A stretch of DNA of 64,000 nt, taken from NCBI GenBank assembly GCA_003134695.1, contig PLCB01000056.1:1-64000 (forward strand), in the 5' to 3' direction. The DNA is from Candidatus Zemynaea palustris. GTDB lineage: Bacteria; Vulcanimicrobiota; Vulcanimicrobiia; Vulcanimicrobiales; Vulcanimicrobiaceae. A program made the translations under genes and the position numbers. Of this stretch, positions 9,990-30,190 are shown in pieces. How positions within the stretch are numbered: the stretch's first letter is position 1; each line of letters opens with the position of its first letter. The notes under the pieces were generated by a model. That model ran no database searches and was not told the origin of the DNA. It worked only from the letters and a program-made list of their open reading frames with translations.

Positions 9990-10855
9990 GACGCGCGCAC
10001 CCGGAACGCGCTCTGGAAAAGGCCGTCACGGAAGCGGTCGCAGCGTCTGCGGGTGAGACGTTGCTCGCCGCGGTCTCGGGCGGCCCGGACTCCGCGGCGC
10101 TCGCTGCCTTGCTCGCGCATCACGCGGCGGAACGCGGCGCTCGCGTCGTCCTCGCGCACGTCAACCACGGGACTCGGTCGAGTGCCGCGCGCGACGAGGC
10201 CGTCGTCCTCTCACTCGCCTCGCTCCTCGGCGTTCGCGCGCTCGTGCGCGCGCTCGGCCCCGGGGAGACGTCGGAGGCGCGCTTGCGCAGCGCGCGCTAT
10301 GCGCAACTCGTCGACGCCGCTCGCGAGAACGGCGCGCGCCGCGTCTTCACGGCGCATCACGCCGAGGATCAAACCGAGACGGTGCTCATGGCGCTCTTCC
10401 GTGGCACCGGCCCGGCCGGTTTGGCCGGAATGCCGGCCGAGCGCCGGCTCGCCGGCGGCGTTCGGCTGATCCGGCCGCTCCTGTGGGCGACCCACGCCGA
10501 GCTGGTCGCCTATTGTCGCCGGCGCCGGCTGCCCTACGCGCTCGATCCGAGCAACGACGACCTCGCCTATCGGCGCAACGCCCTGCGAGCGGCGCTGGGC
10601 GACCTGCGCCGATCATTTCCCGGGCTCGACGCGGCGGTCGCTCGCTGCGCCGCGATCGCGCGTGACGAGGCCTCCGGCGACGAGCGCGGCGCGCTGCGCC
10701 GCCGCCTGCGCGAGGAGCTGGTCGCCGCGACGGGGCAGGTCCGGGACATGACCTACGAACGACTCGACGCCGTCGCTCGCGCCCTCGAGAAGGGGCGGCC
10801 CGGGCGGCACTTCGTCCGGCCGGGCCTCGAAGTGACGATCCGGGGGTCCTCGTGA
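9986..10855 (+). CDS. tilS: tRNA(Ile)-lysidine synthase, short form
   Basis: A 289-residue ATP pyrophosphatase that converts the C34 of tRNA-Ile(CAU) to lysidine. The PP-loop SGGPDSAAL is at about 31-39, with LAHVNHGTR and FTAHHAEDQTETVLMALFRG following, as in TilS. It ends shortly after the RRSFPGLD segment and lacks the long C-terminal substrate-binding domain of the E. coli enzyme, so it is a short form like those of some thermophiles. It overlaps smpB and hpt by 4 bases each. tilS-hpt-ftsH is a widely conserved order. Confidence 0.95.
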   Translation: MRRAHPERALEKAVTEAVAASAGETLLAAVSGGPDSAALAALLAHHAAERGARVVLAHVNHGTRSSAARDEAVVLSLASLLGVRALVRALGPGETSEARLRSARYAQLVDAARENGARRVFTAHHAEDQTETVLMALFRGTGPAGLAGMPAERRLAGGVRLIRPLLWATHAELVAYCRRRRLPYALDPSNDDLAYRRNALRAALGDLRRSFPGLDAAVARCAAIARDEASGDERGALRRRLREELVAATGQVRDMTYERLDAVARALEKGRPGRHFVRPGLEVTIRGSS

Positions 10856-27649: not shown

Positions 27650-27783
27650 GGCTGGGAGCGCCCTCTTTCTCCCGAGCGAGGAATACCCCCGAAGCGGGGA
27701 AAATAGCCTGACCTCGCGACGGGACTCGGCGTCGCTTTCTTCTGTTCAAGAACAACGCAGGACCATTGGAGGCGGCGCAGAGA

Positions 27784-28476
27784 GTGGAATATTTTAGCGG
27801 TTTCCTAAGCTTCATCCAACGGGGCGGACCGGCTATGATCGGTTTGCTCGTCTGCTCGATCATGGCGGTCGCCATCGTCATCGAGCGACTCGTGTTTTTC
27901 GCCCAGCAGCACGGTGACAGCAAGGAATTGCTGCGCCAGCTCGGCGGCAAGATCGCGCAAGACGACATCGCGGGCGCCATCAAAGTCTGCCGGCAGAACA
28001 AGGGCATGCTCCCTAAGATCCTCGAGTTCGGCTTGCTGCGCGGCAACAAAAACCGGGCCGACATCACAGACGCCCTCTCGATAGCGTTGATGGAGCATCT
28101 GAACACTCTGGAGCGGAATTTGGGCATCATCGGCACCATCGCGGTCATCGCGCCGTTCGTGGGCCTCTTCGGGACCGTGCTCGGCATCATCCGGGCCTTC
28201 GACGACATCGCCCTCAAGGGCAACTCGACCCCGGCGGTCGTTGCGGCGGGCGTCAGCGAAGCGTTGATCACGACCGCGGCCGGTCTGTTCGTGGCCGTCA
28301 TCGCGGTTATCTTTTTCAACTACTTCCGGACCCGCATCAAGGGCTACAATCAGGAGATGATCGTCGCCGCCAACCAACTGGCGGAAATGTTGCACTTCCA
28401 CAACGTCGGCGAGCCGATCCCGACCGATTTGTACAAACCCGTCGGGGGAAAGCCCGCGCCGGCCGGCGCGCCGTAA
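27784..28476 (+). CDS. exbB: ExbB/TolQ/MotA proton-channel protein
   Basis: A 230-residue membrane protein of the TonB-ExbB-ExbD or Tol-Pal energising complex. It has three helices: MIGLLVCSIMAVAIVIERLVFF, IGTIAVIAPFVGLFGTVLGIIRAF and ALITTAAGLFVAVIAVIFFNYF. The GLFGTVLGI and EALITTAAGLFVAV motifs are the conserved pore segments. GTG 27784 is preferred because GGAGG at 27768-27772 precedes it; an in-frame TTG at 27766 would overlap that ribosome site. Two exbD genes and tonB follow directly. The 134 bases upstream hold a GC-rich hairpin-like stretch but no clear terminator. Confidence 0.93.
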   Translation: MEYFSGFLSFIQRGGPAMIGLLVCSIMAVAIVIERLVFFAQQHGDSKELLRQLGGKIAQDDIAGAIKVCRQNKGMLPKILEFGLLRGNKNRADITDALSIALMEHLNTLERNLGIIGTIAVIAPFVGLFGTVLGIIRAFDDIALKGNSTPAVVAAGVSEALITTAAGLFVAVIAVIFFNYFRTRIKGYNQEMIVAANQLAEMLHFHNVGEPIPTDLYKPVGGKPAPAGAP

Positions 28477-28482
28477 CCGTCC

Positions 28483-28893
28483 GTGTCGCTTCTCGCGGCC
28501 AAGCAAGAAGAAGAGGTCATGGCGGAGATCAACATCACGCCGTTCACCGACGTGCTCTTGGTCTTGCTCATCATCTTCATGATTCTGGCCGCCCTGATCA
28601 CGCCGCCGGGCTTCGAGAAGTCGCTCAACAAGAGCACCAATCCGGCGACGTCGCAGCCCAATCCGAAACACGAGATCGACGTCGAGGTCAACGATAAGGG
28701 CATCATCTTCGTCGACGGTAAGAAAACCGACGTATCCGGTATCTACTTCGTCATGAGTCAGACCGAGCAGAAGCGCGGCAAGCTTCACGTAGCGATCACC
28801 GCCGACGCGAAGGCACCGTATGGCATCATCATTCGCATCCTCGACGCCGCGCGGGTGGCCGGCCTGGAAGACGTCGGCTTCGTGACAGCATGA
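28483..28893 (+). CDS. exbD: ExbD/TolR biopolymer transport protein (copy 1)
   Basis: A 136-residue protein with one membrane helix. MAEINITPFTDVLLVLLIIFMILAALI contains the conserved NITPFTDVLLVLLIIFM signature with the essential Asp in the membrane. The periplasmic part (about 45-136) has the ExbD fold, including VEVNDKGIIFVDGK and ADAKAPYGIIIRILDAARVAGLEDVGFVT. GTG 28483 follows exbB by 6 bases. Its stop overlaps the start of a 41-residue frame. Confidence 0.95.
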   Translation: MSLLAAKQEEEVMAEINITPFTDVLLVLLIIFMILAALITPPGFEKSLNKSTNPATSQPNPKHEIDVEVNDKGIIFVDGKKTDVSGIYFVMSQTEQKRGKLHVAITADAKAPYGIIIRILDAARVAGLEDVGFVTA

Positions 28894-29015
28894 GCAGCGC
28901 TCGCCTTTTCCGTCGACTCATCGTCGCTCGGCCGCTTAAATGGGTTCAGACCATTCTGCGCGGCCTCGCTCCTCGATTCGACGAAAAATTCGTCGCGCTG
29001 AGAGATATTCTGTAA
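28890..29015 (+). CDS. 41-residue microprotein between two exbD genes
   Basis: A 41-residue open frame starting with ATG that overlaps the first exbD stop (ATGA) and ending with TAA immediately before the ATG of the second exbD. It thus fills the 122-base gap exactly, which is how real genes are arranged in this genome. The product is basic and amphipathic: MSSARLFRRLIVARPLKW at the start, then VQTILRGLAPRFDEKF. It may lie along the inner membrane. I do not recognise it. An alternative view is that it serves only as a translated spacer that couples the two exbD genes. Confidence 0.55.
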   Translation: MSSARLFRRLIVARPLKWVQTILRGLAPRFDEKFVALRDIL

Positions 29016-29429
29016 ATGGCCGTCTCGACGAATCAGGGCGAAGATGAGGTGATGGCGACGATCAACATCACGCCCTTCACGGACGTGCTGCTGGTCCTCC
29101 TCATCATCTTCATCATCCTCGCGGCGGTCACCAAAGAGCCGCGCCTGCCCGACGCCAAGAACACCGACAAGGTCAAGGCGTCACAGATCGTCGTGATCAT
29201 CGATGAAAAGAACAACATCCAGATCGGCTCCAGGACGGTGTCGATCCAAGAGGCCGGCCCGGCGTTCAAACTGCTGCAAGAGCAAACCAACCACGTCTAC
29301 AAGAGCGTCATCATCAAAGCCGATCCCAGGGCGAATTACGGGACCGTTCTTCAGGTCATGGACGCCGCCAAGAATGAAGACTTGACCGATTTCGGGCTCG
29401 CCAACCACATCGAAGGTCAAAAAACGTAA
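29016..29429 (+). CDS. exbD: ExbD/TolR biopolymer transport protein (copy 2)
   Basis: A 137-residue paralogue of the preceding ExbD. MATINITPFTDVLLVLLIIFIILAAVT carries the same membrane signature, including the proton-path Asp. The periplasmic part differs clearly from copy 1 (VVIIDEKNNIQIGSRTVSIQEAG; IIKADPRANYGTVLQVMDAAKNEDLTDFGLA). Two different ExbDs with one ExbB suggest a heteromeric ExbD pair or two alternative complexes. It overlaps tonB by one base. Confidence 0.95.
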   Translation: MAVSTNQGEDEVMATINITPFTDVLLVLLIIFIILAAVTKEPRLPDAKNTDKVKASQIVVIIDEKNNIQIGSRTVSIQEAGPAFKLLQEQTNHVYKSVIIKADPRANYGTVLQVMDAAKNEDLTDFGLANHIEGQKT

Positions 29430-30190
29430 TGAGCGGTCAGCCCCCGGTGTCGCCGATTCCGGTTCAACCGGCCGCGAAAGTGCGCTCTTTCCTCGGGTGG
29501 GCGTTCATTATTTCCGTCGTGGCGCACTTCGTCTTTGGCGGCCTCATGCCGTACAAGCCGTATATCACAAGCGATAAGGAAACCGAAAAAGTCTCGGTCA
29601 CCAAGAAGACCAAGATCATCGTTCCGACGCCGCCGCCCACTCCGACTCCGCCGCCGCCGACCCCGCCGCCCAAACAGACGCCGCCGCCGGTCACTTCGAC
29701 CGTGCCGCCGCAGCAACCGAAACTCAAGCTCAACGTGCCGAAGTCGATGAGCAAGGGCGACAATAGCTCCTCCGCCGAGCACACCTACGTTCAGCCGAAG
29801 GAAGGTAGCGAGCAAGGTGTCCCGCAGGGAACCGTCGCTTCCGCGCCGCCGGCTCCGACGTCGGGCCCCGCCACGGCACCGCCTGCGCCGACGCCGACCC
29901 CGCCGCACTGCGCGCTGCCGCACAAGGATGCAACGACGACGCGCCCGGTCGAGCCCGACTACCCCGACTTAGCTCGCCAGCAGGGCGCGGTCGGAACCGT
30001 TCAGGTGAAGGTTTCGCTGAGCCCGACGGGTAGCGTGGTCAGCACGAGCGTCTATAAGTCGTCCGGCAACGCGCTACTCGACAAGGCCGCGTTGTCCGCG
30101 GCGCGCGCGAGCTCGTACGCGCCGGAGGTCGAGGACTGCGCGCCCGTCGCGGGGACATATCTGTTCCGCGCCGACTTTAATTCGCAATAA
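29429..30190 (+). CDS. tonB: TonB-type energy transducer
   Basis: A 253-residue protein: short cytoplasmic N-terminus, one membrane helix (about 23-42, SFLGWAFIISVVAHFVFGG with the SxxxH-like His), a long Pro/Thr-rich span (about 65-100 and 130-165), and a C-terminal TonB domain (RPVEPDYPDLARQQGAVGTVQVKV...SSGNALLDKAALSAARASSYAPEVEDC). Two cysteines (HCALP and EDCAP) frame the TonB domain and may pair. It should couple the ExbBD proton channel to outer membrane transporters, which supports a diderm cell. None of those transporters is in the window. Confidence 0.94.
   Translation: MSGQPPVSPIPVQPAAKVRSFLGWAFIISVVAHFVFGGLMPYKPYITSDKETEKVSVTKKTKIIVPTPPPTPTPPPPTPPPKQTPPPVTSTVPPQQPKLKLNVPKSMSKGDNSSSAEHTYVQPKEGSEQGVPQGTVASAPPAPTSGPATAPPAPTPTPPHCALPHKDATTTRPVEPDYPDLARQQGAVGTVQVKVSLSPTGSVVSTSVYKSSGNALLDKAALSAARASSYAPEVEDCAPVAGTYLFRADFNSQ

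Follow-up and report, generated by a model that had tools for sequence, protein, structure and literature searches.

The window analysed here, a stretch of 64,000 nucleotides from Candidatus Zemynaea palustris, carries a set of Ton-motor genes that Pfam orders as exbB-exbD-exbD-tonB (table 1). A short open reading frame lies between the two exbD genes, and both of its neighbours are ExbD. The initial annotation described it as a 41-residue frame that fills the exbD1-exbD2 gap exactly, and this is the case: the frame opens in an ATGA and closes with a TAA directly before the next ATG. Its translation is MSSARLFRRLIVARPLKWVQTILRGLAPRFDEKFVALRDIL, followed by a stop. No Pfam family matches the frame, Rfam returned nothing above the gathering score for positions 28400-29500, and a search for the 41-aa peptide in 99 genomes of the family gave, beyond its own copy, chance-level matches only.

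Table 1. Genes and features around the exbD1-exbD2 junction, in positions of the window.
Feature	Position	Strand	Remarks
exbB	27766..28476	+	Pfam PF01618, E 2.2e-32; TTG start at 27766, or GTG at 27784 (the gene caller's alternative)
exbD1	28483..28893	+	136 aa, GTG start; Pfam PF02472, E 1.7e-23
41-codon frame	28890..29015	+	ATGA shared with the exbD1 stop; TAA abutting the exbD2 ATG; putative bridging (spacer) cistron
Repeat copy (palindromic, interspersed)	28893..29003	+	Model span 1-109; E 7e-26 with R1, this copy being itself among the five used to build R1; R2 also matches
Repeat hairpin	28895..29000	+	-44.9 kcal/mol, z -3.8 against shuffles; covariation
exbD2	29016..29429	+	137 aa; Pfam PF02472, E 2.1e-22; weak upstream Shine-Dalgarno match (-2.9)
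tonB	29429..30190	+	Pfam PF03544, E 2.8e-18; TAATG, 1-nt overlap with exbD2

The joins at both ends of the frame do resemble those of real genes, as had been remarked. When genes were called by codon usage over about 262 kb of the genome (G000), the -4 overlap was the most frequent join, with 47/176 codirectional pairs. Among 40 gaps of 55-300 nt in the same material, one is filled exactly by a frame, namely the one studied here, and shuffled gaps lead one to expect 0.67-1.47. A filler frame is thus at chance level in this genome, and the observation of the frame alone proves nothing.

ExbD1 was detected in 92/99 genomes of the family, and about 60 exbD1-exbD2 junctions were readable. Their spacers range from -1 to 43 nt, and one relative has 76 nt without such a frame. 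A long spacer crossed by a frame occurs, among these junctions, only in G000 (122 nt) and in its congener (76 nt); a scan of related loci in the named genomes gave this single congener, UBA5184 (G098). The idea that the same small frame would recur at constant length between the exbD genes of relatives is therefore not borne out, since it is confined to one genus with two known species. The congener's frame, MSAGLFRQLIVARPDKKSLALESYVA, has 26 codons between an ATGA start and a TAATG end. It is separated from the frame in G000 by in-frame indels of 3 nt and 45 nt and by two single bases close to the end; its C-terminal half is frameshifted and it lacks 45 nt. Despite the 3-nt and 45-nt deletions, it still reaches the ATG of exbD2, and in both species the ends of the frame lie within reinitiation distance of the two neighbours (a -4 overlap and a 0-nt join in G000, -4 and -1 overlaps in the congener).

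In the 14 codons common to both species, 7/9 differences are in third positions (one-sided binomial P 0.008, for a block picked post hoc), and outside this block the comparison has no coding pattern. We set this excess aside because the block was picked post hoc and the structure of the spacer DNA, described below, constrains the same bases. An apparent frameshift in the congener's exbD1 is not a mutation and stems from a run of N in its assembly. Such runs, flanked by repeated sequence, interrupt its exbB, exbD1 and exbD2 (L059:2209-2284 in exbD1) and resemble scaffolding gaps.

In a tree of ExbB, ExbD1 and ExbD2, the two species stand together (support 99) and are joined by G027, G029 and G004 (SH-aLRT 89). 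In these representatives of the nearest other genera, exbD1 and exbD2 overlap by 1 nt (TAATG). Given that the nearest neighbours in the tree all have this arrangement, the ancestral state was most likely a 1-nt overlap, and the spacer most likely arose by an insertion that split a coupled pair.

The spacer DNA has further matches in its own genome (E 4e-12, 1e-11, 8e-8 and 1e-3). It belongs to a repeat of about 107 nt with about 10 copies there (9-10 by covariance model). A first model, R1, was built from five copies, with the exbD copy included and that of the congener left out. R1 finds nine copies in G000 and seven in the congener, among them the congener's shortened exbD copy (E 1.2e-9). 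It also detects the repeat in further genera and in the sister family, and has no match in eight genomes from another family of the class. A second model, R2, finds copies in 76/99 genomes of the family, with at least 55 in G051. Judged by these matches, it is close to certain that the 41-codon frame originated from the repeat. We found no published description of the repeat in the literature searched.

When aligned, the copies share a single long hairpin, and substitutions between copies affect both sides of its stem. Over 56 distinct copies, pairing is kept in 88.5% of cells (59.3% when shuffled), and 28/29 pairs display double-sided changes, which amount to 410 cells against 121 in shuffles and at most 83 in slid registers. 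In genome G062, five copies of about 150 nt are almost identical to one another, with unrelated flanks and (C)TAG on either side (L219, L235, L248, L249 and L250); on comparison of their surroundings, these copies suggest that the element has been mobile. The full-length version in G062, about 150 nt, has long perfect inverted ends, and (C)TAG may be either a target duplication or the ends of the element. With many dispersed, short, non-autonomous copies and a palindromic fold with inverted ends, the repeat is a MITE-like palindromic interspersed repeat.

Some copies are shared by position. Three occupy matching positions in the two species, where they are strongly alike. One copy adjoins the 5' end of a 16S rRNA-like sequence in both species and is conserved with its flanks (L215:959-1067 on C42 in G000; L247:832-940 in the congener). 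In G001, G002 and G004, adjacent copies in inverted orientation, one base apart, are frequent (L268:1393-1607, L282:1501-1715, L327:1003-1220); in G001, for example, such a pair occupies C4:10128-10234 and 10236-10342.

Open frames abound in the repeat: 64% of the forward frames of its copies are open, compared with 40% after shuffling. Copies in intergenic positions yield peptides much like the one between the exbD genes, such as VAAGLFRRLIVAASVTM... close to a STAS-domain gene and ...ALFRRNFVAPRLNG... following a leucyl-tRNA synthetase-like gene (both gene names were read from the sequence). The initial annotation had called the product basic and amphipathic, and had raised the prospect of a microprotein of the Ton motor. 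The composition is as described; it is, however, a property of the GC-rich repeat and does not point to a peptide of the motor.

We gathered 184 distinct copies with their flanks and scored their positions with a simple gene caller. Just one of the 184 was scored as lying within a gene, codirectional genes flank 115, and others are located directly 3' of genes, many of them between convergent genes. The repeat inserts at stop codons. That is, the stop of the gene end facing a copy is at one of two fixed offsets from the core in 102/192 cases, either at -6 to +3 nt (37/192) or, for a longer type, at +24 to +29 nt (65/192). TAG stops are in excess at the copies (116/192, against 56/~154 in a sample from the window's own genome).

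A single bridging case could be luck, given that copies carry open frames anyway, and we therefore looked across copies. By machine count, among codirectional gaps no longer than 170 nt, a frame bridges 14/37, against 3.7 for phase-shifted versions of the same sequences; the count becomes 15/37 once the exbD junction of the congener, missed by the caller owing to a run of N, is added. The count was repeated at the same gap size with the end window widened slightly and with the congener and a second rplW/rplB case omitted; of the 35 junctions in this set, a frame bridges 14 (Monte Carlo P 0.00175 against their own phase-shifted versions, in a test devised after the first cases were known and on junctions of which some may share ancestry). 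Short-type copies at a stop codon are bridged in 6/13 cases (P 0.012). Bridging is less frequent in element-free gaps of 85-170 nt, at 15/132 as opposed to 15/37 with the element (Fisher P 1.5e-4). In gaps of at most 130 nt, the element is oriented with transcription 13:2 (P 0.007). By Pfam on the flanking proteins, the bridged junctions include rplW/rplB (in several genera), tuf/rpsJ, atpD/atpC, hsp20/lon and cheC/cheA. The gap between an hldE-like and an lpxB-like gene holds a copy common to both species, with a very similar element (L210:1501-1608, L234:1501-1611); in G000 this gap of 112 nt has no bridging frame, and the copy in G098 abuts a scaffold gap and was left unscored.

The rplW/rplB junction carries the element in five genera (30 genomes read there, plus G001). 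All five frames begin at -4 (ATGA or GTGA) and stay open across the element. Their end lies at -1, 0 or +1 relative to the rplB start in three cases and 11 nt past its estimated position in the other two. In-phase differences among four of these frames amount to 0.25, 0.30 and 0.24 at codon positions 1, 2 and 3. Since the codon positions change equally, the peptide is not under visible selection, and the purifying selection that a working microprotein would lead one to expect has no counterpart in these homologous frames.

These results suggest an account of the exbD junction, to which we attach a probability of about 0.6: the insertion split a coupled pair, and the frame was kept since it carries ribosomes across. 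Before the insertion, exbD1 and exbD2 would have shared one base (TAATG), probably with translational coupling between them. A short mobile palindromic repeat would then have inserted at their junction in the ancestor of the genus. Its left end would supply the TGA that stops exbD1 and make the ATGA for a restart; reading would then continue through the hairpin until the TAA at the ATG of exbD2. Ribosomes finishing exbD1 would thus restart on the 41-codon frame and arrive at the start of exbD2, and coupling would outlive the insertion. The 41-aa peptide itself would be a by-product without conserved sequence.

This account draws on what is reported for native gene pairs in E. coli and Haloferax, where reinitiation is nearly lost past about 20 nt (PMC10666635). 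Because it falls off over so short a distance, an untranslated insert of 122 nt should uncouple exbD2. Genes for subunits of a single complex are, in the same study, enriched in short overlaps (PMC10666635). The excess of bridging frames suggests that the frame keeps the downstream gene translated, and not that it makes a working protein of the motor. We infer that the frame is translated and that coupling is the target of selection. The frame may well be translated; that it has been retained as a translational bridge, taken by itself, we consider slightly better than an even bet.

The most serious competitor is neutral. In that case the repeat inserted between the genes, its open frame is an accident and exbD2 initiates on its own. 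Filler frames at chance level in G000 fit this, as do the 52/54 copies with at least one open forward frame. Shine-Dalgarno signals bear on the matter too. Nearly all exbD2 genes of the family that lie at least 11 nt from exbD1 have a Shine-Dalgarno match, while overlapping ones and those of the genus itself lack one (loci L030-L097). In G000, however, the strength of the signal is independent of gene spacing and does not separate coupled from spaced genes, so that the missing exbD2 signal lends only weak support to coupling; weak signals like that of exbD2 are common at spaced genes of this genome. The neutral explanation does not account for bridging frames that exceed both phase-shifted variants and element-free gaps, nor for the biased orientation of the element in tight gaps, and we regard it as unlikely, though well within reach.

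It is improbable that the RNA hairpin itself has a role between exbD1 and exbD2, for example in stabilising or processing the mRNA and so setting the ExbD ratio, with the frame incidental. The strong covariation of the hairpin would agree with such a role, as would the copies directly 3' of genes or between convergent genes and the three highly similar copies held in place in both species. Against this, the exbD copy of the congener no longer has the inner hairpin and yet retains the frame, and the excess of bridging frames would be left unexplained. A functional microprotein of the Ton motor is very improbable: the post hoc third-position excess in 14 codons is what it has in its favour, and it is opposed by the repeat origin, the similar-looking peptides of intergenic copies, the restriction to two species, the frameshifted C-terminal half, the lack of a family match and the unbiased codon positions of the analogous rplW/rplB frames.

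The bridging account has partial parallels in known systems. The ERIC / RU repeats of enterobacteria, intergenic repeat units of 103-168 bp, are similar in size, MITE-like, present in many intergenic regions and endowed with open frames able to join annotated loci (PMC2759123). They differ in sequence and phylum, and the reported cases are ORF fusions within gene loci (PMC2759123), whereas the spacer frames described here link two operon genes at ATGA/TAATG junctions. Rickettsia palindromic elements (RPEs) are likewise palindromic, about 150 bp long and furnished with an open frame that fits the host reading frame, but they lie inside genes and lengthen proteins in frame (PMC10969869). We considered membership in this class and rejected it, as in-frame insertion within protein genes defines it, and here just one of 184 copies was scored inside a gene and copies sit at stop codons. 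The Chunjie MITE of Geobacter uraniireducens is likewise a MITE inserted into an operon, reportedly with no disturbance of the operon's structure, according to a title cited in a review (PMC10969869); that review makes no mention of a bridging frame. Finally, termination-reinitiation is described at -4/-1 overlaps (PMC10666635), and the exbD frame has these junctions at both ends. The difference is that two genes overlap directly there, while here a third, repeat-derived frame would hand the ribosome on.

We tentatively extend this reading, at somewhat less than even odds, to the whole family of mobile palindromic repeats in Eremiobacterota, which might be transparent to translation: copies would insert at stop codons, their ends would supply or restore stop/start overlaps, their open-frame bodies would act as spacer cistrons, and S10 ribosomal, ATP synthase and Ton-motor operons would thereby survive the insertions. 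If true, this would be a concrete way for transposable elements to occupy coupled operons and leave them intact, and would also generate short frames that resemble real small genes yet are not microproteins. For the annotation of small ORFs it is a warning that exact, gene-like joins are no evidence that a peptide is functional. The many parallel insertions, among them those in ribosomal-protein and ATP-synthase operons, would also offer natural experiments on how strict translational coupling between neighbouring genes is.
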